This document shows, piece after piece, positions 2,191 to 61,446 of a stretch of 64,000 bases of DNA (the first letter of the stretch is position 1; each line of letters starts with the position of its first letter). The translations under genes and the position numbers were made by a program. Origin of the DNA: Lytechinus variegatus (lineage: Eukaryota; Echinodermata; Echinoidea; Temnopleuroida; Toxopneustidae). The notes below the pieces were generated by a model. It saw nothing but the letters and a program-made list of their open reading frames with translations. It did no database searches and was not told where the DNA came from. The stretch is from the NCBI RefSeq assembly GCF_018143015.1, contig NC_054751.1, forward strand, positions 25,464,783 to 25,528,782, written 5' to 3'.

Positions 2191-3767
2191 TGGCATCTGA
2201 AGGAACCCCTCTAGCAGAGAAAAAAACTGAAATCAAAACTAGAATTTGATTGCTGTTTGCATTTAGTTTTCATTTCTGCACATACTTCCATATTATATCA
2301 CTGGTGTTAACATGCGATCACACCACATACAGCACAGGGAACTCCTCGAGCAAAGAACTTAAAATGTCTCCTCGAGTTGATAGTTGTTTGCTTCGAGACT
2401 GTCTCTGCATGTGCTTCCATATATCCCTGTTGTTTACCATACGATGTCACCACATAAATGTGGGGCTGAGTCAATCGCATCAAATGATGTGTAGGAAAAT
2501 AGGTGTTGAAGTGCTGAAAACTGCCATGATGGGTATGTGGCCGCTGTTGTTCTGGGATAGCCTGGACACAGATTTCATATAACACCATCAAAACAAACAT
2601 AATTTGATGGAAAATATTTTCCCTTGGTCTGTCAGTTTACATGATTTGGGGGAGCTTTAAATTTTACTTTGAATCAGATCGCACTATGATCTGACAGCAA
2701 CAAAGTTGCCAATTTATCTTAGTGCTATCGCATCACACACATTGTAACAGCACAGCAACCCGCTGCATCTCCAAGGCACCTCTTTTACGCATATGCTGTC
2801 TCTGCTGCAGCAACACGGTAAATTTGCCACGACATCATCTAGGACAAATCTGATCGACTCAAATTATCAAAATCGCAGAAGAATTTGGGCATTTGGGTAT
2901 CAACCTCAACAAATTCTGAGTTAGATTGAAGCAGTATAGAGCAGTATTTGTGGTCAACAAATAGTGATGAACTTTTCATAATCGACAATATTTTGCTGTT
3001 GTCTCGTTACCGCGATATATTAACATAATCACATAACCATTATCGAATATTCGATACCACATAATTTCAATATCGATAGATCGCCCAGCACTATTTGTGT
3101 AATTCTTGCTCTTTAGCTTATGAAACATTAATTTGCTTTATTACATGATTTTCATTTAAATTATTCATATCTGTATTTGTATAAACAATACATTAAGTGC
3201 ATGTAGAGTTTTATGTAAATATACATGTATTATCATGACTAAATGACTTTGCCTTCAATTGACTCTTATTTTATGTAATTTCTACCAAAGAATGATTAAT
3301 TTATTGGAATTGAGTGTTTACAAGTGTCGATGAATTCTGATGATGCAATTCCCATTGTAAATTACACTAAGCGAGATAAGAGACGGAAAGAGTGAGAGGG
3401 GGCCGGGATAATGAATTTCAGAGCTACCAAGTCTCACACATTATGCGTGAGACTCAAGCATTTTGGACTCTTGTTCATCCCCTCAAATCTCTGTCTCACG
3501 CAACTATCACAGCCTATCCCCATATACATTGTTCACAATGTCTGTGATCTCACTCAGATTCACAGAAATCTCACCCATAGCTGGTCTTTGAACTTGGCAT
3601 CTCTGGAATTTCAGTAAAACATTCAATTTGCAATCGGACTTTATTCATTTCAAATCTTTTTAAACCAAAATATAATCTAATATTAGATTTTATTTTTATT
3701 TTCAATCATAAAAATAGAATATACATGTAGTAATACTATACAGAACAAGGAAATGGTTATGCAACCC
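2191..3767. other. RRP12 3' UTR and downstream spacer
   Basis: AT-rich sequence after the RRP12 stop. No open frame here resembles a protein. No clear AATAAA is seen close to the stop, so the 3' end of the RRP12 transcript is not placed. Nothing else was recognised. Confidence 0.5.
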
Positions 3768-7239: not shown

Positions 7240-10200
7240 TTAACCTTGGAATGATCTACACGATGCTTTGAGTCTCTTCATGGCTGAAAATAAAACAGAA
7301 AACGTTTGTTCAATGAATTCAGCTACACTTATTAAAACAGAACAGAGTAACAACTCATAATCACTTCAAGAATCACATGAAGACTTCTATTTCTCATGAG
7401 GGTTCCATGACATTTGCTCCGGCGACAATTGCTCCGATGGAGAATTGGCACATTAAGCGAAACATAAAACAACCTCGAAAACTAAATAAACCCTAATCAC
7501 AATATTTACATTGTTCTGAACCAAAAACTCTATTGCAATCCTTACTCTAATCCTAAGCCTTCAAAGATATTAAGACCGGAGCAATTGTCACAGGAGCAAA
7601 TGTTGTGTCACCCTCATGAGTACCAACAAATTACAAATAGAACTACATTCATAAAATGTGATATTGCATCTGTGGTTTGAAGCCGTGGTTTGAAGCCATG
7701 GTTTATGCTTGCTTTCATGCACTGATTACACTTATCAGCATGTGCATGTACATAAAGACAGTGTCCCAAAATGAGTGCATGATTCTATCACAGGGCTAGT
7801 TATTAAGGTTACTGTTATTAATGACCCACTTTTCAAAATCAACACAATGAGAGGACCCATTAATTCAAAACAGTGGGCTCAATAATGCCATGACCTCACA
7901 TGCTCCAATTTAACATGCCGAGATTAAAGTGCACAATCAGCATTGGATGCTTATGAATCTACATGAATGCGCTGATTAAGTGTAATCACTGCATGAAATT
8001 TGCATTGAACCATGGCTTCAAACCATAGATTCAAAACAACTTTGGTGAATTCAGGTCTGAACGTCTCAGTAGGAGCCTTGGGGGAAAAAGGTTTTCGATG
8101 TCATCATGTCATTTAACGATCCCCTAATATTTTGTGTTTTGTCTAGATGTAGCAATATGAGGATTGGAAGGGCATGCAAACATTGGACCAGAATTCCTCT
8201 TACAAAAGTTTGGACAAATGTACATGTAGCTCAAACTTTTTGTTCAGTAGCTTAGTAGAAAAGCTGCCATAAAAAAAAATGGATTTTAATCACCTTTGAT
8301 GAGGATCTCCTTTGGTAAAGTATGGATGATCCTCGCCCAGCCATACTCGTTGTAATAGAATGACGAGGCTGGTGCAATGGCGATCCCATTGTCAAGGCAG
8401 TGCATGGAGAACGCCATCTCAGATTCCTTGGTTGCATTGGGGATGAACTGCAGAAATATGAGAAATAAATCTTTGAACCTACAACTACAGATGAATGGTG
8501 TTTCACAGGTTAATGATTTCAATTAATGCGCTGGTGTGATGTTAAACTCACTGTCACAGCAAAACATTGATCATGTCAAAAGGCACTTTATAAAGCTCTA
8601 TTTTCTGTTCATATGGATATTTAGGGAGCGCAATAGTGATTTCATGTTTTTAAAAATATAGGTGTACAGCAAATATGCATGCATAAATCACTTGAAGATT
8701 CCTTTTCTTTTTAAGTTACAACTGTAATATAACAACTTGAACTTGATCATAATAAAAATGGTTTCATTACATTTGCTCCAGCAACAATTGCTCCGATGGA
8801 AAATCTGCACTAATAAGCAAAACATCAAATCTAACTTCCAAAGCTAAATAAAACCCTTATCATTATCTTTAAAATATTCTGAACCAAAAAGTCTAATACA
8901 ATCCTCTACCCTCTGAAATGTTAAAACCCAAGCAAATATCATGTCTCCGATTAAAATACATTGAAAATATCATGTTAATGTGGTTAGAGTAGCTGTTATA
9001 AACAAGTAAATTAGAGTATATACCTTTCTAAAGTCTGCCCATAAGAATAAGCCAGCAGCTGGTTTCACATACTGTACCCCAAGCTCATCTAATGTTTCCT
9101 GCACGATGTTGGAAGATTCGAGTAACATGCTTTTCTGGGTTGACAGGTACCATTTTAACCATTCTGAATTTTAAAAAGAAATGTAAATATTCGATAAATC
9201 CAACATAGACTTTTAAAGAAAAAAACACAATTTGAAGGGGACAGTGATCTCACATTGTCACGCTATTATTTGCGCTATTATTTGTGTCTTTATACCCATT
9301 AGAACCCTAATAGGCATTTTTGTTGGTGTTAGATGCCGCCGCAGTCAGAAAAGCAGTGGCTATAGTCTCACTCTGCTATGCAGGCGAGACAAAAAGGAAC
9401 CATCTAAAGATTTGCATTGAAAGTAGAGGGGCCTGTAGAAAAGCATACGGTTCAATCTTAAACGATTTCATTTATTTATACATTTTTTAATATAATTTGT
9501 TTTCTATACCTTTGTCTTTTAGAACTTTTGTCACAGCAATCTGGAGAAACAGAGGTACTTGATAAAAATCCACCAAAGCAATCAGGGCAGCCAAGACACT
9601 GGGATTCCATGTATATGCTACTCCTACCGGACTACCTGGCATTCCAAAATCCTGAAAGAAAAATACGAGGGAGTAAAAAGTTTGAAATCCTACTCTATGA
9701 GTTGGTGAATCCCCAAATCGTTGCAAATCACTTTTCCAATTTAAGTACAGGTTATATGAATGAGTATGCCCCAAAGCAGTTATGATACAGAGGATATACA
9801 TTTTAATGGTATTTTATTTGACAAATTTTGTGATTTTACATGAAAATTTATTTTTTATCAGGTGTTCAATCAATATCAATTTTTCTTTTTGTTATTAAAT
9901 CCTCTTCCTTTGCATGAAACAAGCTATAAATTTCAAGATCTTTGTCCTTAGATTTCTGATTAACCAATCACTGATTTTTTTTAAAGGCAAGAGCTCAAAA
10001 TGGCCTTACCTTAAGAAAAGTATAAACATTGAAGAAAGAAGGCACTATAGATCTTCAATTTTCAAATAAAAAAAATTAATGGCCTGTAAACTTTTGTATG
10101 ATTGGAACGTTAAATGATACTGGAGAAGAATTCACATTAGTAATCTGTTTATGTTAAAGCTTTAGGCAGGAATTAATTTATGTACAATTTATAAAAAGAA

Positions 10201-13200
10201 GAAAGCCAGACATGTGGGTGATGAGATAGAGGGGCAGTAGACAGACTGTTTCACAGGAAGCTCCAAAGACAACATAGTGGAAATGTTACACGATAAACAG
10301 AAAAAGAAAATCCTGTCCAACTTCATATCTGCTCTCTTTGAAGGTTATCTCCACATGTATATGCATGTTGCCATTATATGTGCAATCATGATTCCTTGCA
10401 CTGGTAGGATTTCAACTTAGAAAAAAACAAATATGAATGATAAATAAATATAGTGTTGTATTTTATTTTCAATGTAAAAAGACCATCATTTAAATTTAAT
10501 TATCCTTTAGGAGACTAACTCTAATGAATTTAATGAATGAAGAAAAACCTTAGCCATTCCCCATAAGACATGTGTCCTATCCTTATCGGGTAGATCATCT
10601 GGGTTAAAGGTGAATATACTCGAACTCTGGACAGAATTATCATAGATACTGCAATTGTAAATCTCATCTATAACACAATGTAGACTGTGCCTGGAAATAA
10701 AGTAAAAAAAATAAATAAAAGGAACATTTTACATTGTCATTATAATTGGTAATATGATTGTCAAGATAATAATCAATATAATATTCAATATGATTTAACA
10801 AAGGTCAATATAATTCAGCAATTAACAAAACTAGTTTTGTCCTTCATTTAGAAAGTATATAAAAAATCAAACTTTTTATCTTATTCTTTAATTTTTCTGT
10901 TTTCATTCAAGATAACTTGATCCAAGATTATCAATCTCATTTGATTTAGTCAGACTTAGACATAATGAAGCATACAATCATAATCAATGACTATCCTAGA
11001 TGTCACAGTATATTCATATATAATCTATCACATACCATTTATTAGACAAACAATCCTTCATAAAAGATATAAAATTGATTAAAAAATTACCAACAGATTA
11101 TGAAATCTAAACAAAAAATTAAGAACAGCAAATATATATATTTCAATAGATAGATTTTGACACCACTGAGCATAAATATACTACATGTACATCTGTTAAG
11201 AGAATTACAACTTTTAATTTTCATTCCCTCTTTCATTCTTTTGCTTTTCTTCATTAAAATTTACTTTGTGTTTTTACATGGTAGATATTTAGATGCCTAT
11301 GAGATTTGTAGAACCCTGTGATAATATTTCTGGAAATATTTTTGTTCAGTATTAATTCTGGAAGCAACTTTTGGGAAATAAATAGGCTTTAATTAAGACC
11401 ACTGAGGGCTATGATTTCTTTTGCTGCCCATCTGTTGACTAGCCTGGATGCCCCACTCATTGGCCTCAAATTTGTTGTCAAGATTTGTGCCTTATTCATC
11501 TTTCCAACTTGTGCTGTTATGTGCCTGGTTGAAAATTGGCCTTGACCTAAAACTATTGAAATTTAATGCATGAAATAGTATTGATATTTCAAATATTGTA
11601 CACTGTTCTTTGTAAAGAGTCTAGCTAGAATGTGCCCCAGGAAGCGGAGGATGTGTGAGCGATCCAGAATCCGATGGCTGGGGTGATAACATTGTCAAAT
11701 ATGATAAGCTATACATAAAAGAACTCCCTGAGTGTTTAAAAAAACAATCCTTATTTAATTTCTTTGTGTTACAGTTGTAAAACTATGAGAGCTTACTTGT
11801 GGCAAAATTTGAGGTACTCCATGATCTGTTGTCTGGTGTAAACAGTCCCACAAGGATTGAATGGGTTGACAAGAATAAGGGCTTTCACTTTGTGACCCTA
11901 TCAAATAAAAATGAAACATTAAAATCATCATTATTATCAAATTGGCAACACATTAGTATCAGCAAATCAACAATTTATTCACACAATTAATTTAAATTTA
12001 AAATTGAATGGTTTCATTAAGGAAGATGTTCAAAGGGAAGTTCACCCTGGCCTGAATACAATATGTAGGAAAGCTGCTCACATATGACATCACAAATCAA
12101 ACAATCAAAATGTTAATAACTTTGTTATTCTTTGATTGATTTTCATCAAACTTTCAGCAGTATTTTCTATTATTTTTTCTGCTATTTTTTACAAGAAACT
12201 TTTTATCAGGGTGAGCTTTCCCTTTAATAAGATTTCTTTACATACCTCTTGCTTGGCTTTCTCCAAGGCTTCTTCTAGTAGTTGAACAGTCAGCTCGTAT
12301 GGTTCTCTTCCATCCGGTTCTGCCTTCAAACAGAATTAAACACATGATAATATACTTGTACACCAAGATAGACATCTTGGATATACAGGTGCTGATCAGG
12401 GAAGCATTTCATGAAGGACTTGTCAGATGTTTTAATGTATATACAGTGTACTTCTCTTATTTCTGCTTATTTGCTTTGAAGCACCTTCAGCATTTAATTA
12501 CAGAGATGGAAAGTGTGATATCAATCACATGTATAATTATAATAATTATTATTATTATCATTGACAGGTCAATGGCCTTTCTGACTTCCTACATCTGCTA
12601 CATTTTATTTTCATTTCTTTTATATTTCTACCAATTTTTTTTTATTGCTTATACTGTGATCCAAATTCTTTTATTACTCTGTTGTTGTTGTATACTTGTA
12701 CATATGTTTGTAAGTTTTTAAAGGATGTCAAATAAATGAATTGAATTATTAATTCATTATTATTATTATTCCATTTCACATCAATAAAGTATGTTCGTAA
12801 ACATCTGTGAGGTCAAGGATACAAGATACTGTAACTTGGATTCATGTATGTTGTTAGAGAGCGTAATAAACTGAACTTCAGTGTCAAAGGCAAAGAATGG
12901 GGTCAGATCTACAAAGCAATTGTGCATGCACAAACCAAAAATATTAATGAAGTTCAAAGGTCAATTTTACATAAGAACTTAAATAGATGGTAACACTGCT
13001 ATCATGATAACTACTATAAAAACAGGGCTCAGCAAAGCCATTCAAGGTAGTTGGCAAATAATGTCAAAGCTATCATGACACAGTTTGAGTAACAATAACA
13101 TTCAGGAATTTGTAATCTAACATCTCAGTGTGGGAAATACACAAGGGTAACAGGTGATTTTGCCCTCATGATGATCCAAATCACTCCTAAATCTGCCCAA

Positions 13201-16200
13201 ATAGCATGCTTTGGGGCGTCCTTCTTTTCTAGAATCGCCTTTATAGATTGGCCACAAACAGTATTCAAGAATATCTTGAAAATCAAATCTATACATAGGG
13301 GAAAATGATGATTTTTTATTACCCACACAATTGCTGGTTGTGCAAAAATAGCCCTTAAGATGAAAGAAATAGCCCCCCCCCCATCAGTAAACACCATAAC
13401 TTAAAAAAGTAGCCCTGACACTATATGAATTATTTCCCAATCTGATTTATCCATTATACTCTACTTCACTAAATTATGACAGAGCAGGCTTCTGAGAATT
13501 TGAATAGATGAATCAGAATAGGTGTACGGAAGTAGAATGTATTATCGAGGGCATAATGAATAAAGGAACCTTGGGAAGAAGAGTTCAGGCCCAAGGAGTA
13601 GCAGAGGGCATTTGAACTGTTTCAAGTGTATGTAATAATTCTAATGCCTGTGTATTATGTGTTATATGAATATTGATGAGGCCAAACAAAATGTAATATA
13701 TTGTAAGTCTCACACTCGGACAAGTATACAAGCATCAGAGTCAGATGTAAGCGCTGTGGGTACTTCCCATCATGGCCTCTTGAGTGCCGGAAGCACATTA
13801 AACATGATAGGGCCTATGACCGTTTACATCTTTATTGTACTTGAGTGATGATTAATACATTCATAACACAATCTCATCTCGAAACCTTGACCAGGCATTA
13901 TATGGCAGGGGCCGCAGAATGGTTTTTAAAGTGGGGGGAGGGCTGACCATGCTAAAAATCACAATCATATGGTCATTTTTATGTTTTTGTACACGGTTTT
14001 GGAAAAAAAAGTGGGGGCTGAAGCCCCCACCCCCCTCGGTTCCGCGGCCCCTGTATGGTACTATATTGACCAATTATCACTGATCATTGGTAGATCTACG
14101 GGTAAGGCGATATATATGAACTGTCACCGGAGGGCATAATTTATACCAATTCATACCTTACTGCTTAGATAGACTGGATATGTATTAACTTCAGCCTGGT
14201 ACTTGATGTCCCGTGGTATACCCCCATACATTGGAGAAGGGGTCAACACAGTATCTGAAACATATTTCAAAGACAAGAATTATAGTAACTTACATCATCA
14301 TCATCATAATTAAAAATTATAATAATAATTTATTATAATGATAAAAAACAATTCTCTGTACAGCTCATATGATATTATATCTCTATGCGCTCCTTGTGGC
14401 CTTGCATAACCCCTTGTCTGATTTCTTTCAAACTTACACCGCTGTCTTTCTCTTTTTTTCTCACTTAACACATTCATTTCATCACCAAGGATGGATTTCC
14501 CCTTTAAAGCCTATCTTTAATTTTCTTTAATTTTGATAAATCCCTAAATCACTATTCCAATTCATAATTTGACTGAGTGTGCTCTAAAACATTTATGATA
14601 TGAAATCAAAATGTGATGATTGGATACAATTACAGGTTTTATACCGGAATTGTTTTGACTGGGTACCTGGTTGAAATAAAATCCTCAACATATTTTTGTT
14701 ATCTAATACCCCTTCTAAGGCATGGATGGCCTGAAAATTTGTTCAGGATATAATCTTTTCCTGAGGTATCCTTACTACCCCCAATAAGAACATTACCAAG
14801 AGAGGGCACTAGGTTCCAAATTTAAATTCTAATGGCTTTAAAAATCCCAATTTTAATTCCAATGGCTGAACAAAACCTTGAATAACAATATTTTTTGTAA
14901 TATATGTATTGGAATATATATGAAACTTGAGTATATTTCACATTATTGACCATCAGAGGGGTGTTTCACAAAGATTTAAGTATGACTGAGAGTCGCACAC
15001 CAACGCGTACATGATATGCAACACACAATCTTATTGATTGATACGCAGTTAGTGTGCGTCCTAATGGCACGATCTAACCAATGCGGTCAAGCCTTTTACA
15101 CCGCACGCAACTAGGCATTTAGGTAAAACTTTGATCTAAGTCACACTTAAATCTTTGTGAAACATCCCCCTGTTTAACTGATAGACTCACCCCCAGGATT
15201 GCAGAGTATAAATGCCATCACATTTATTACAGGAGTTACTCCAGCCATGATCACCATCTAAAGTATGAAATACAACATTAAGAATTGCATTTACAGTGCT
15301 GCAATATGTAGTGGAAGGCGGGGTAAGTTGTGACAGTTTTTGCTTTTTGCATGTTAGAATTGATATGATTAATAATCTTGTCGAAATAAGTACCTTGCCT
15401 TGAAATTTAATTCTTCTGAAATATTTTCCACCTATATATAACTTTCTATCCCCACACTGAAAGTCATCGTGACCTTTGAAAAAAACGATGTCAAATGGCT
15501 CAACTTGCCCCATATATGGGGTAAGTTTGAGCCACCTTCTGGGGTAAGTTGAGCCACAAAAACTATGTACAAAATGTATGAGGGGAGAACCAGCATGTCA
15601 ATTTTTTGTTTAAAGTCTTCACTTGCCAATTCTCTATAAATACTAACATCCTTTAAAAGGAAAAGAGCAGTCATGTAAATTTGCTCCTTTCAGCCAGCAT
15701 TTCAATCGATTTTATGGTTTGTTTGTTTTTTAAGATACATTACCATAGGAATTACCATGGCTCAACTTGCCCCATGCTGTTTGGCTCAACTTACCCCAGT
15801 CCGATCTTAGTGCGATAATTTTGTATCCACACATTTATTATGCATCCATCATATAAAAGACTATGACAAGAATGAAGATCCATACCTGGACAAATAATGT
15901 TGTTATCATGTCTTTATTATATTTAAAGACGTGTGTGTTTATAAAGCACTTATCTATTTCACACTCTTTTTTACTTTTTTGACTGAAATTCACATTTTTC
16001 CCTCTAAAAAACTACTTTTTGTTTCAAAGTTGAAAACAATGTGGTGGGGTTAGGGGTTATGCTATGGGTCATCAATACATGACACCACCACAATGTCTGA
16101 CTCATTCATTATTGGCCTGGGGCTGGTGGCTCAACTTGCCCCTATGCTCAACTTACCCCGCCTTCCCCTACTTGATAATTATCTAATCTAAACCGTGTGC

Positions 16201-20269: not shown

Positions 20270-20933
20270 AAAGGAACGGTTTTTAAAGTGGGGGGGGCTG
20301 ACCATGCAAGAAATCACAATCACATGGTCATTTTCACGTTTTTGTACACGGTTTTGAAAAAAAAGTGGGCTGGCTGCCCGGGGGGCCACTTACATTGACG
20401 AGTGGATACCATGCGCGACCAAAAAACACGTAAAAAGGATGTCTTTTTCACGATAGGCACGTACATACGTAACGTGATAAGGTGTCAAAAACACAAAAAT
20501 AATGAAAAAAAGGGTATCTATTTCGCAAGGAAAATTACGTGTTTAGGGTCGAATTTGCGGGGATGATAAAACAAAGATAGAATGTTTTATAAAGGATGTC
20601 TTTTTTACCCCAACATTTCGTGTTTAGGGTCCGATTTGCGCGAGGTGTAGAAGGTGGGGTCGATCTAAACCAAATAGCCGACGACCGAAGGACCCGTAAC
20701 AATAAAACATTCCTTTACTTATTTAGGGGTTCATTTCAGGGAACATTTGCCAAGATTATCATTTTCTTTGCAATACTCGTTAAGGGTAGGGTTTCAAACG
20801 CCAATACTTGTTCAGAAAATGGAAATTACGTGTTTAGGGTGCTTTTCGAGACCCCATGCATGGTCGCGCATGGTATCCACTCGTGAATGGAAGTGGCCCC
20901 CCCCCCCCTTCCCGCTTCCGCGGTCCCTGAAAG
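20270..20933. repeat. Partial or rearranged CAGGGGCC-family copy
   Basis: 20280-20370 repeats the family core (AAAGTGGGG, CTGACCATGC, ATGGTCATTTT, TGTACACGGTTTTGAAAAAA) and 20915-20933 ends CTTCCGCGGTCCCTG, a family-like right terminus. The left terminus is not found. The middle holds repeated 'tacgtgtttagggt' words at about 20538, 20620 and 20828. Confidence 0.5.
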
Positions 20934-21000
20934 GGATGGGGTTTTTTCAGTTTTGGACGCGGGATGCGCGTGCACTCGTAAAGTGTATCAAAAACACCGA

Positions 21001-22113
21001 TTTTTGTCTCACCTGCGAAGCGAAGTGAGACTATAGGCGCCGCTTTTCCGACGGCGGCGGCGGCGTCAACATCAACTCTTAACCTGAGGTTAAGTTTTTG
21101 AAATGATGTCATAACTTAGAAAGTATATGGACCTAGTTAATAAAACTTGGCCATAAGGTTAATCAAGTATTACTGAACATCCTATTAGAGTTTCATGTCA
21201 CATGACCAAGGTCAAAGGTCATTTAGGGTCAATGAACTTAGACCATGTTGGAGGAATCAACATCGAAATCTTAACCTGAGGTTAAGTTTTTGAAATGTCA
21301 TCATAACCTATAGGCCTATATGGAGCTAGTTCATGAAACTTGGACATAAGGTTAATCAAGTATCACTGAACATCCTGCATGAGTTTCATGTCACATGACC
21401 AAGGTCAAAGGTCATTTAAGGTCAATGAACTTTGGCCGAATTGGGGATATCTGTTGAATTCCCATCATAACTTTGACAGTTTATGGATCTGATTCATGAA
21501 ACTTGGACATAATAGTAATCAAGCATCACTGAAAATTTTGTGCAAGTTTCAGGTCTCATGATTAAGGTCAAAGGTCATTTAGGGTCAATGAACTTTGGCC
21601 GAATCGGGGGTATCTGTTGAATTGCCATCATAACTTTAAAAGTTTATTGGTCTAGTTCATTAACTCTTGGACATTAGAGTAATCAAGTATCACTAAACAT
21701 CCTGTGCGCGTTTCAGGTCACATGACCAAGGTCAAAGGTCAATGAACTTTGGCCGAATTGGGTGTATCTGTTGAATTACCATCATAACTTTGAAAGTTTA
21801 TGGATCTGCTTCATGAAACTTGTACATAAGAGTAATCAAGTATCACTGAACATCCTGTTCGAGTTTCAGGTCACATGATCAAGGTCAAAGGTCATGTAAG
21901 GTCAATGAACTTTGGCCATGTTGGGTTTTTTTGTTGAATAACCATCATATCTCTGTAAGTTTATTGGTCTAGTTCATAAAAAGTGGACATAAGAGTAACC
22001 ATGTATCACTGAACATCTTGTGCGAGTTAGAGTAGTATTCAAAGTCAGCCGACTGCTGCTATATTGAACCGCGTGATGCAGCTAGTGAGACGGCCAGAGG
22101 CATTCCACTTGTT
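21001..22113 (+). repeat. Tandem array of about six 155-195 bp units with DR1 and IR1 nuclear-receptor motifs
   Basis: A head segment (GTCTCACCTGCGAAGCGAAG...TGAGACTATAGG, then a GGC run) is followed by six related units, each built like 'catcataactttgaaag...gttcatgaaacttggacata...aatcaagtatcactgaacatcctg...gtttcaggtcacatga'. Exact AGGTCAAAGGTCA (direct repeat of AGGTCA with 1-bp spacer) occurs at 21209-21221, 21402-21414, 21565-21577, 21729-21741 and 21882-21894. Shortly after each (overlapping in the fourth) is RGGTCAATGAACT, an inverted repeat with 1-bp spacer, at 21226, 21419, 21582, 21736 and 21899. Spacing is about 193, 163, 164 and 153 bp. It lies between divergent ACCS and BNIP3. It may be a dispersed element that merely contains these motifs. 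Confidence 0.85.
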
Positions 22114-24480
22114 AAAAATAAGGGTGGTTTGAAAGACTAGCTGGTCAGTGGTCAAACGTATTTAGGGTATGTTTTTCCCCAAAAACTTTTTTTTAATTCT
22201 CTTTTCTTCCACATCGGTATATGGGTGTTGATCCCCAAATATTTCAGATATAGGGTCGATGGCCTGTGTTATCATCCCCCTCAATAATTCAAGGTCGAAA
22301 AATTATAATATTTTAACATGATGAATCACATGACAAGTTATATAAATTATATTGTTTGATTTGATTTGATTTGATTTTATTGATTTCCGTTTCACAACAT
22401 AAGAATGATAAATATAACATGACAAGGTCGAAAATACTGCAAAACATAATAAAATATATATAACATAATCTTAGACTTAAACTTAGACTTGTTGTTGTTA
22501 TTATTGTTATCATTATTATCATCATAATCAATAATTATGATGATAACCATGATGATGTTAGCGATGGTTATCTAATTCATGCATAACAAATATAGGCCTA
22601 ATATTGTTTTGCCTATAATTTTCTTATGAGCAAAACGATATTATATTTGTTTTGTTTATTGATGTTGAATGACACAATTCCTTTTAGAAACTGTTACAAA
22701 CAGATGGATGGAGAAAGAAAAAAAAACAGTGTAGGATGAAATAGGAATAACATGTTTTGGCCTATATGGTCATATTTTTATACATGACAAAATCTTCTTT
22801 GAATTGCCCCTTCCCGCAACCAAGCGCATGGGGTCTGGTTCCTTTGTTTTACCACCATTTGGAATGTCACTTCATTTTTGTTAGCCTTTTTTTTCTTTAT
22901 TCAACTTCATTGAGTAAAATAAAGCGATCGAAGAAAATACAAAAGAAATGATGAGCATTGAAATTTTAATGTATAAAATATATATAACCTAGTGAAAACC
23001 TAGTGTCAATTTTTCTCATTTTCAGGTCATCATGAACTTTCAAAAACTCTTCAGCTCGCGCTTTGCGCTCGCCATTATTGGTATAATCCGTATACTATAC
23101 ACTGTAAAAAAAATATATATATGAATTAGTAGTTAACACTTATATGTATGTAAGTAGAATTTATTATTTTTTATTATTTCTCGATTTTTTTCAGTCCGTG
23201 AGATTACAATTGTCTTTTAATTTAATTTATTTGATTTACTTGAGTTATTTGGGTTCAATATACAGTTGCAAAAATTCGATTAAGTAAATCTCACTCCAAT
23301 TAGGCAAAGATAATTATTACTTATATTCATGTTGAATGTGCTTCGGAGTTCGGAATGGAATTTAGGGAAATGGAATAAAAAGGCCGCGCCGAAACACTAG
23401 ATTCCCTAGCACACGCTGTGATGAAAAAAAACAACAACAGCAAAGTGGGAGTCAGGTGCAGTGATGTCCCCCTCAACTTGGCTGCACGTCCAAAATAATA
23501 AATAAAAAAGGTGTAGATAAGAGAATAAGAGGTAGGAAGGGATAGAGGAAAGTAGATGAAGGAAAATCAAAAGAGGAAAAGAAGTGAACAAAATTAAAGA
23601 GGCATTCACATTATGGAATCGTTTTCAAGTCAATATGAAAAAAACAACAGTTTGTTCAGCTGTATGAGCATTTGCGACCATTTCCTTTTATTCAAAATCG
23701 CAGCAGTCGTCGCAAATAGTTTCGAGATCAGTGAAGGTCCGTCCAAAATTAGCAAAGTTATATGTTTGGTCCCTCGGAGAGGACTTAAGTTGTTGGTCCA
23801 ATGATTGCTCACTAAAAAATACCCTCATTCTTTTTACTCTGAGCGGTCTTAATACCGTCACCATCTTTTTTTATCATTGTTTTTATCATTGGTAAGTATG
23901 CCTAAAATCAATCTTAATCACAAAATTGTAAACAATCATAAAACGGACATATACGTCTTGATCAATTCGTTAATTTTTTGTTATTGATTAATACTTTTTA
24001 CATCAATGAATTTTTCTTATCATTGCCTTATTTTCCCCCATAATTTCTTCATAATGATTTTTACACATTTTTACTCATTCATTAAGAAAAGGATGCTGAG
24101 TTTTAATTTGTTTTTTACCACGAAAACCATTATACGGAGTTGCATTTTCAGGGGTGCCCTATTTATAGGGGCGTGCAGTGGGGCGGCTGATCCCTGCGAT
24201 TATCCAAGGGATATTGGAAAGGGGAATATGAAAATAAATTGTTAGAAAAAAAGAGGACGACAAAATTGATGAAGAGTGAAGGAGATACATTTGGTACGTT
24301 CATCTGCCCCCTCCCCCTGCATCATTTTCGCGCCGTATTGACATGGTCTCCACGAAAAATAAATAAATAATTTTCATTTCTGAAGAAGTTTTATATCATG
24401 CTGATCTTATTTGAAGACCCATTTAATTTTTTTAAATCAAATTTTAAATCAGGGTCTGTGCTTGCAGACTAGCGGGCAGT
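22114..24480. other. Spacer between ACCS and BNIP3, no gene recognised
   Basis: AT-rich. Contains a (TTGAT)n run at about 22350-22380 followed by sequence like the 3' tail of a non-LTR retrotransposon on the - strand, ATT/ATC microsatellites near 22495-22555, and a single GCTCGCGCTTTGCGCTCGC motif near 23054 that matches the satellite unit inside the element at 50731-51750. Nothing else was recognised. Confidence 0.5.
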
Positions 24481-33800: not shown

Positions 33801-36800
33801 CCATGTTATGAATCCATTTTTTTTACGTTTAAAGGTGAAAATGGCACTCAAAATTATTCACTGTTCAAATTGTTGTAAACCTACAACTATTCAGTACCTT
33901 TTTTGTGATTTCTCTGTTTGGCTCTTATTGGGCCTAAATTGCTATGTCAGGAAAAGTTGTTATACATAATCTAAATGCAGATAGAATTGAAATCTGCGCC
34001 AAATAAGCAGGAAATAAAATAAGGCAAAAACTAGTTCAAAACTGTAGATTTCATAAATTCAAGCTTGTGGGAAAAAATATATGTGATATCCCTCTGTGAT
34101 AGGAGTGAAGAGAATGAAATGCTTCATCTGGAAAGCAAAAAAATCACCCAGTTTTTCTGTGTACAAACCTATGGAATCACGACGCTTCTTACACAACGTG
34201 ACGTCACGGTCTCCAGGCAAGTGAAAAGCACAATAAAGCCTATTTTCTAAGCGGGGTTCGAAGCCCGCTAATTGGAATATTCTTAATCAAAATACTCAGC
34301 TGGGAAGTGGTGAAAATGAATAAAGCATACCTTGCTGTATTTAGTAGCTTATAAGCTTTCGATTGGTATATAATTTTTCAATTTCATTTTCGGGTCCGGT
34401 CTGGATCTTTAATGAGCGGCTCACAGACAGCATCCAAAGATATTCAAAACTTGTAGATAATTCACTGTATTTTTCCCATGGGACATACTTCATGGTTTGG
34501 TAGTATTAATAGCAGGGAGAAAAGATAGAGAGTTAGAAGCAGGGAGGGGCAAGGGGCATGCACCTAGAGTCTGCTGTGCAAACCCTTCACTCAAGTTTTG
34601 AGGGTCTGAATCTGCAGCCTACTCATGCCTGAACAGCAAGTTTTGTATGTGCTAGTCTTTGCATGGAGCCACACTTGTTGATCAAAGTTTCAATCAGGGT
34701 CTGTGCCTGCAGACTAGCATGCACTGCATACACCATATTCATTGGGTGAGGGGCTGCAGAAAATAAAGGCTGCGGAAAGTAAAGGATTTATTTAAAAAAA
34801 AAACTTTCAAAAAGATGGGGTTTTAGTCAGAAGTCAGATGTCAGTATAAAAGAAAGAAAGTGAGAGAGTATGGAAAGGAGGAGAGATGAAAGTAGAGAAA
34901 AGAGGCGGGAAATAAAAAGGACAATAGCGATGGAGATAAACAGAGTATTTGTTGGGGGAGATGCAGAGAGGGGGGTGTTGGGAGTGAGGGAGGTATAGAC
35001 CAATATACATGAAAAGTGGAGAGGTATAGAGAAAGAGTGGGGAGAGCAAGGGATACGGATACATTTATTGTATTTGTATATCTGCAATAATGATTAATGA
35101 ATGAGATACTTTTGGTGAGATCCAACTTTGACCACCACCTGCTTCCAGACAAAGTGCACAAAATATAATATCAAATGGGTATCGATCACCACATGTAGGT
35201 GTACATGTATATATGTAATACATGTATATACCACAGAAATGACTCCTGGCAGTAGAAGTGATAATACTTCAATTCATTATTTTTTTTTTGTATTTATTTT
35301 TTTTCTTCCATTTTTCCAGCCCTAAAGGTCCACCCAGCCCAGTTCTAAGTTCCAACCCAAGTGCACCTGGATCTATATACAGTAATGGGTCAGGAGAAAA
35401 ACAGGTGAGTGAAAATAATGTAACTAGGGTGTCCGCATTATCATCATCTTTATCAACATTGTTACCGTCATCTTCATTCCCATCATCATCACCATCATCA
35501 CAATCACCATCATCATTACCATCATCACCACCACCATCATCACCGTCTCCACCATCATCTTACCTCATCATTATCTTTATCATCATTATCTTCATCATCA
35601 TCATCACCACCACCGTCATCATCACTTCTACCACCACCACCACCAAAATCATTACCTACAGGTTTATAATTACTGATATCATCATCATCAAAATCATCAC
35701 CATCATCATCATCACCACCACTTCCATCATCATCACTACTACCACCACCACCAAAATCATTACCTACAGGGTTATAATTACTGATATCATCATCATCACT
35801 TCTACCACCACCACCAAAATCATTACCTACAGGGTTATAATTACTGATATTATCATCATCATCATCATCACCACCACCATCATCATCACTTCTACCACCA
35901 CCACCAAATCAATACCAACATCATTATCATCATCATCAACTCCACCACCATCCAGTCTGATCATCATCTTTCATCACCACCAGTATATCTCCAACCAGTG
36001 TTCACAGAGAATAAGATTACCAGTTATTTGTGTTCATTGATATTTTTTCTCTTTACACATCATTATCCAGCATGGAGTACCGGTCCTGATGGGACAAGGT
36101 GAAGCAGCCAAAGGGAGGGAGGAGAACTGGATCTGGGACTGGTCAAGCAGGCCGGAACCACTCCCACCAAAGTAAGTCCAGGGGACCCTCTCACAAAAGT
36201 TGTCGGCACTGACAAGTTTTCATTATCCGAGAGCTACCAAAGTAACAGTCAAATACCTATGCTTCTCAGCCGATCGAAATCAAGACTAGTGGTCAGATCT
36301 GATGACAAATTCTGATGAAATGACCCCTTTAGTCTTAAAAACCATTACATGAAAGTTGTCAGCACTGACTAGCTGTCTGTGATTCTCAGCCGTTCAAAAC
36401 CAAGGCTACATGTAGTCATCGGATCTGGGTCCCGTGACACAGACTAGCAATTAATTGTACACTTTATTTTTATGATTGATTGTACCTTATACTTGATGTA
36501 TCAATCATTTAAAAAAAACATTCTAAGATCATTGCTAGGCATTTTGTTACCTGCCCCTTATTACTTGTCAGACAACAAATATTGATGAAACGCCCCCTTG
36601 AGTCCAGGACCCTCTGGCATTCTGATCACTTGCGTAGGAGAGGGAGGAAGGGGCAAAGTGCCCCCCCCCCCCTCCCTCTGACTCTGACAGAATTCTGATG
36701 AATACTTGTCAGAAAACTCCAGCAAATGCTCTAAACCTTTGACATCTCTTTTTTTTTTGCCCCTCCTGACAAGACTTTCCAGGTATGCTGCCACTGATAT

Positions 36801-60391: not shown

Positions 60392-61147
60392 CCACTCATT
60401 CAATGAACAAGGTTATGATATAACCTTGTTCTCACTTATATCTCCATGTGTGGCAAAATAAGGGTGGCAATGTTTGGCTTATTTTCTCTATTTCTTTGAG
60501 GCAAATGCGTGATTTTTTTACACCGACAGTTTCCATTACACCTATTATTCATACAATTTTGAATTTGATTCTTTAAATTATTTTTTTTAAATTAAAATTA
60601 GAGATCAAAAAATGAAAATTTTGTTGCCATAATTCTTTTCACCAATAGAGGGCGTACAGAAAAATATGCCCAAAATTCAAGTTTTTGAGCGTTCTGGTGA
60701 ATACAAAATTAAACCTAAGTTACTACTACTAGGCCTAATGAATAATAAATTGCAACTTTATGGAAATTAGTAATTTTGGTCACAAAAGTGATATTTTAAT
60801 GATTTTTTTAAGTGTGTGCTCTGTTCAACATTGGCATACCATAGTCTGTAGATTCCCCACAGGCAGGGTGGTAGCACTTGTTCACTGCAACCAATCTCTT
60901 TTTTTAATTAAGGAAAAATAATTCAAAGAATCAAATTTACATATGAACTGAGTTATATGATTAATAGCTGTATTGGAAACTGACATTGTAAGAAAATCAA
61001 GCATTTGTCCCATAGAAAAAGAGAAAATAAGCCAAAATTGCCACCCTTACTTTGCCACACATAGAGATGTAACTGAGAACAAGGTTATATCATAACCTTG
61101 TTCATTGAATGAGTGGTTATATCATAACCTTGTTCATTGAATGAGTG
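60392..61147. mobile_element. Foldback element with about 100-bp arms
   Basis: The left arm starts CCACTCATTCAATGAACAAG and runs through GGTTATGATATAACC, TGTGTGGCAAAATAAGGGTG and GGCTTATTTTCTC; the right arm is its inverse. The right terminus is duplicated in tandem (about 61084-61115 and 61116-61147). About 755 bp, no protein. Confidence 0.7.
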
Positions 61148-61446
61148 GGTGGTAGCAGTGAACAAGTGCCATGTACCGTACATAACTTTGGTCGAAAAAC
61201 TAAAACTAAACAAAATTGGTGATTTAGGTCTAGGTTCAACACGGGTAATCCTGGCCTCTACGGAGAGGCATGTAAAAGCAAATCCAGGCATTAGGGGAGT
61301 GATATAGACCTACGTAGAGCATTCAATGAACAAGGTTATAATGACGTAGAGTATTAAACTGCAGTCCCCAGACGCCTCCAGAGTCCAGGCTAAGCCTAAG
61401 CCTTAGGCTAAGCTAGCCGAAACTGTCTTAAGGTTAAGTGTTACCC

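Follow-up and report, generated by a model that had tools for sequence, protein, structure and literature searches.

Non-autonomous Helentrons (HINEs) are described as having a left flank in which a subterminal repeat, a complementary short repeat and a microsatellite follow one another, then central repeats, a 3' subterminal repeat and a palindrome, and their insertion sites are T-rich (PMC7492417, PMC4067079). The subterminal inverted repeats of HINEs measure about 11-15 bp, insertion leaves no target-site duplication, and central tandem repeats with a microsatellite are frequent without being universal. In Cg_HINE of Crassostrea gigas, the central monomers are reported to be mostly 140-180 bp long and the arrays to hold mostly up to five of them (PMC7492417). 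The element analysed here resembles Cg_HINE, as described there, in its left-flank modules, its short satellite-like array and a right flank with a candidate 3' subterminal repeat and a candidate palindrome, whereas its own 3' repeat is interrupted, its hairpin is weak and two of its units are 193 bp long (PMC7492417). The microsatellites of Cg_HINE mostly have 4-nt units and the present element has a GGC run; the likeness is one of layout, not of sequence (PMC7492417). Comparison by layout also relates the element to HINE / DINE-1 elements, which are described with subterminal inverted repeats, a short inverted repeat beside the 5' one, a 3' stem-loop, optional tandem repeats and oligo-T ends (PMC4067079). 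Judged from their descriptions, Pearl of bivalves, with at most six central repeats of ~160 bp (PMC7492417), and Tsp, a sea urchin element counted among the DINE-1-like elements, are similar as well.

Mobile elements with DR1-type receptor sites are already known from Alu repeats, on which HNF4A binding was reported from arrays, ChIP and reporters (PMC3252374). The HNF4A-site Alu is alike in being a dispersed mobile element with sites for a DR1-type receptor, but it is a SINE and not a tandem-array element, and binding was shown there, whereas here the likeness is a sequence match alone (PMC3252374). Another published receptor element may derive from a virus (PMC10995137). Literature searches with GGTCAAAGGTCA and related terms returned, among the matches listed, no open-licence title or abstract beginning that joins HINE central repeats to DR1 or IR1. 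To judge by their titles, the papers matched by strings of the window do not concern such repeats, and none of the 20 entries listed out of 5,382 for a broader search contains the motif.

The 64-kb window, which is the whole stretch of DNA analysed, contains a central tandem array of five complete units followed by a partial one at 21066..22028 (+), described by Tandem Repeats Finder as 193 bp x 1.9 copies and 163 bp x 4.4 copies. The full units carry sequence matches to DR1 and IR1 nuclear-receptor response elements. RXR, HNF4 and COUP-TF recognise DR1, and receptors of the FXR/EcR class recognise IR1. Pattern matching on the + strand placed exact AGGTCAAAGGTCA (DR1) and exact RGGTCAATGAACT (IR1) at 21209-21221 and 21226-21238 in unit 1, 21402-21414 and 21419-21431 in unit 2, 21565-21577 and 21582-21594 in unit 3, 21729-21741 and 21736-21748 in unit 4, and 21882-21894 and 21899-21911 in unit 5. 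Each string occurs five times in the window, always within the array, and the motif-to-motif spacing across the five units is 193, 163, 164 and 153 bp; the sequence-only reading had listed five units with both motifs exact at 153-193 bp spacing, and all were found in their places. The IR1 starts 17 bp after the DR1 in four units and 7 bp after it in unit 4, where a 10-bp deletion leaves the two motifs overlapping with one half-site in common. This overlap apparently fits a deletion between two GGTCA copies. In unit 3, TCACATGA is replaced by TCTCATGA. The sixth unit (21940-22028) stops short of the motif position and is therefore uninformative on motif loss.

With up to two mismatches, AGGTCAAAGGTCA has 7 matches in the window against 1.78 expected, and RGGTCAATGAACT has 10 against 4.03; in each case, one of 100 shuffles reached the observed number. 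The looser DR1 form RGKTCANRGKTCA has a single site in the window outside the array, at 12951, and the looser IR1 form RGKTCANTGAMCY has none there. RGKTCA half-sites are similarly concentrated, with 24 of the 136 in the window starting in the array, where the rate outside it predicts 1.7. However, all five motif occurrences go back to a single unit, and chance has to be counted about once, for the ancestral unit, and not five times. The tandem repeat finder scored a two-unit period of 317 bp highest (979 vs 942 for 163 bp), and units 3-6 may thus be the doubling of a unit pair, which would leave less independent evidence. Pairwise identities slightly favour such a doubling (0.873 for units 3-5 and 0.820 for units 4-6 vs 0.848 for units 4-5 and 0.810 for units 5-6). 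A palindrome, CTTAACC-TGA-GGTTAAG, lies at 21078..21094 (+) in unit 1 and at 21270..21286 (+) in unit 2 and is restricted to these first two units, each of 193 bp. The DTC84 element is described as having a conserved palindrome close to its repeat junctions (PMC5139131).

The element is inferred to be ~1.1 kb long, from 21001 to about 22113, and its parts begin with an oligo-T, the subterminal repeat and, beside that, its complementary arm; the GGC run and the central repeats come next, and a candidate 3' subterminal repeat and a weak hairpin close the series. The oligo-T at 21001..21005 (+) forms the putative 5' end, and similarity to a second 5' end begins here, at TTTTTGTCTC. It is followed by a candidate 5' subterminal inverted repeat, GTCTCACCTGC, at 21006..21016 (+), whose complement, with a 3-nt insertion, lies in the right flank. 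GTGAGAC at 21025..21031 (+) is complementary to the start of this repeat; GTCTCAC and GTGAGAC form a short inverted repeat of 7 bp with an 8-nt spacer, inside the range reported for HINEs, and the 7-bp outer stem of the minimum-energy DNA fold. Nine of 200 whole-segment shuffles of 20998-21070 fold equally well. Some 20 bases past GTGAGAC, a microsatellite-like CGG/GGC run begins (21052..21065, +), in the same place as the microsatellite in HINE left flanks.

The right flank extends in sequence from the partial unit to the 3' subterminal repeat (22029..22077, +), and a query from 22029 onward found no second match within the window. The candidate 3' subterminal inverted repeat, GCAG-CTA-GTGAGAC, at 22078..22091 (+) has 11 complementary bases and the 3-nt insertion. 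When first tested with a 35-nt query including the oligo-T, the subterminal repeat did not reach significance (319 of 2893 random segments scored as well); with an 11-nt query trimmed post hoc, 22 of 5869 random window segments scored equally. The minimum-energy DNA fold of 22040-22120 contains an imperfect, weak 3' hairpin of 9 base pairs (22084..22109, +), but the folding of the entire segment is not better than that of its shuffles (z -0.54, 55/200). The 3' terminus is approximate and is placed at 22110..22113 (+) from the HINE plan. The 3' subterminal repeat and the hairpin are thus weak as features of the element.

A second 5' end is located at 9335..9395 on the minus strand, 11.6 kb from the element, between two weakly recognised ACCS-like pieces. 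It has no array and is alike from TTTTTGTCTC through the GGC run, with 83.6% identity over 61 bp (E 8.5e-13); oligo-T begins both 5' ends (21001 and 9395-9335). The comparison suggests that the family is dispersed and that its 5' module can occur separately, and this second module is the strongest single point for assigning the element to the HINEs. No further 3' end or complete copy of the element was seen within the 64-kb window. Other GTGAGAC/GTCTCAC sites (3431-3499, 13707, 25323 and 59538) were rejected as element ends on inspection by eye; at 3431-3453, GTCTCAC lies near GTGAGAC in what appears by eye to be a hairpin, without the remainder of the element's 5' end. Searches of viral_contigs with five patterns and of genome_contigs with two, collections of viral and prokaryotic sequence, returned no copy, and neither did a distant blastn search of 20998-22120 against plasmids and phages. 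Since the collections searched comprise viruses, prokaryotes and their plasmids, this blank outcome says little. In Rfam, nothing in the whole window reached the gathering score, and the base-composition profile added nothing. Both the unit and the 5' end may be similar to repeats that are common among marine invertebrates.

Taken as a whole, the array very probably represents the satellite-like central repeats of a single HINE insertion of ~1.1 kb. The element type would be one already known, the published HINE plan being matched in outline. The unit length of 153-164 bp falls in the Cg_HINE monomer range, which suggests the same assignment; the first two units, at 193 bp, exceed the quoted range, and the interrupted 3' repeat and the weak 3' hairpin also speak against it. 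By analogy with the family, the Rep/helicase of an autonomous Helentron would copy the element. The DR1 and IR1 strings would already have been in the repeat unit before unequal exchange or replication slippage multiplied it, so that all five units would have the motifs by descent. Most likely, the likeness to receptor sites is what the repeat unit happens to contain, and any binding of receptors would be incidental or would have been co-opted later. The sequence-only reading had also allowed that the units are duplicates of a dispersed element with the motif in its consensus. This is the better supported of the two readings it offered, because the array lies between HINE-type flanks, of which the left module is found a second time in the window. 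A local satellite or minisatellite with no relation to a transposon is accordingly disfavoured by the left flank, which carries the HINE modules and is found again, lacking the array, at a distance of 11.6 kb; although the tandem structure by itself would fit such a satellite and the HINE features at the 3' side are weak, this origin is improbable.

The genes around the element are recognised with different certainty. A BNIP3 piece at 36041-36172 (+) exceeds the curated Pfam cut-off (8.5e-7). The ACCS-like pieces on the minus strand, at 8.3-9.8 kb, match Pfam Aminotran_1_2 below the cut-off in two of three cases (E 0.015 and 0.21), and the third has no Aminotran_1_2 match in Pfam. Across the eight translated pieces, Pfam returned BNIP3 and the weak aminotransferase, the remaining rows being weak and below the cut-off. 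In the PDB, 3 of the 11 sequences matched by the ACCS-like pieces are ACC synthases (E 0.063-0.083); the other eight, among them the top match (E 0.0021), come from coronavirus spike constructs and were taken as chance matches. The placement of the array between ACCS and BNIP3 therefore stands on the BNIP3 side, where one piece backs it, and is backed weakly on the ACCS side. Seen from the element, the recognised gene pieces end at a distance of ~11 kb and begin at one of ~14 kb, and a promoter location is not known for the array.

Within the unit, variation is lowest over the motif stretch, which may reflect protein binding, a need of the element or sampling. In an alignment of the four units that lack the deletion, 1 of 26 motif columns is variable compared with 48 of 125 elsewhere (Fisher 3.5e-4), the single variable motif column being the first base of the IR1 (A or G); 25 of 52 flanking columns are variable when both sides are pooled. 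The contrast persists when CpG columns are excluded (1/26 vs 43/115). A parsimony count gave 2 changes in the motif columns against 14.2 expected (Poisson 8e-5), and every one of the four change-free 13-column windows overlaps the two motifs. Comparison inside and outside the 13-mers thus bears out the earlier statement that they hold steady while the rest of the unit varies. These numbers would be expected if the array were a transposon-derived platform under selection, through which RXR, HNF4, COUP-TF or receptors of the EcR/FXR class regulate nearby genes, and the reported binding of HNF4A to Alu repeats (PMC3252374) offers a precedent. However, the motif stretch was chosen post hoc for its invariance and the contrast rests on five related units; by column permutation, p = 0.011 for a 30-column window this quiet and p = 0.097 for the longest invariant run, of 15 columns. 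Neither columns nor units are independent, and the best tree, which pairs units 1-2 and 3-5, is one step ahead of three others. The usual motif spacing is lost in unit 4, and the nearest recognised coding pieces are ~11 and ~14 kb off. Such a selected platform is quite unlikely, and it is still harder to credit that a HINE family spreads constrained exact DR1/IR1 arrays genome-wide, with this copy perhaps in use between ACCS and BNIP3. Of the earlier hint of constraint, what stands is that the 13-mers coincide with the quietest stretches; their selection for invariance and the permutation values weaken the remainder.

Constraint on the motifs beyond descent is possible, and it could also serve the element itself. 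The quiet stretch could bind a protein of transposition or chromatin, or act as a recombination box, and would then resemble receptor sites by coincidence. This explanation operates inside the HINE assignment and is no competitor to it. The bivalve satellites BIV160 and Cg170 are described as keeping two short motifs while the rest diverges (PMC5139131, PMC7492417), and two neighbouring blocks are likewise the quietest in the present units. However, five units are available here, and for the BIV160/Cg170 boxes no statistical link to array junctions is reported (PMC5139131). Constraint of this kind is conceivable, with the odds against it.

If the motifs were constrained family-wide, the family would provide a natural test of mobile tandem arrays spreading receptor sites, with variants in copy number and spacing as replicates. 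Were arrays indeed spread in this way, each insertion could bring a cluster of receptor sites, spaced like nucleosomes, into the vicinity of a gene. If the motifs are unconstrained, the case illustrates how a single chance occurrence of a strong-looking motif in a repeat unit is multiplied into what looks like a cluster.

Other repeats were observed in the window. A 523-bp stretch at 20380-20902 is MITE-like, with 42-nt terminal inverted arms that are 95% complementary, and ends ~100 bp upstream of the HINE. Within this stretch lie three repeat copies with CGTGTTTAGGGT in common. Next to it, ~76 bp at 20301-20376 have 90% identity to 13946-14020, and the first 43 bp of this segment match 17662-17620 on the opposite strand at 88%. 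A TTTGA pentamer run lies at 22355-22386, ~240 bp downstream of the element, and a 32-bp tandem unit is present in 2.1 perfect copies at 61083-61148.
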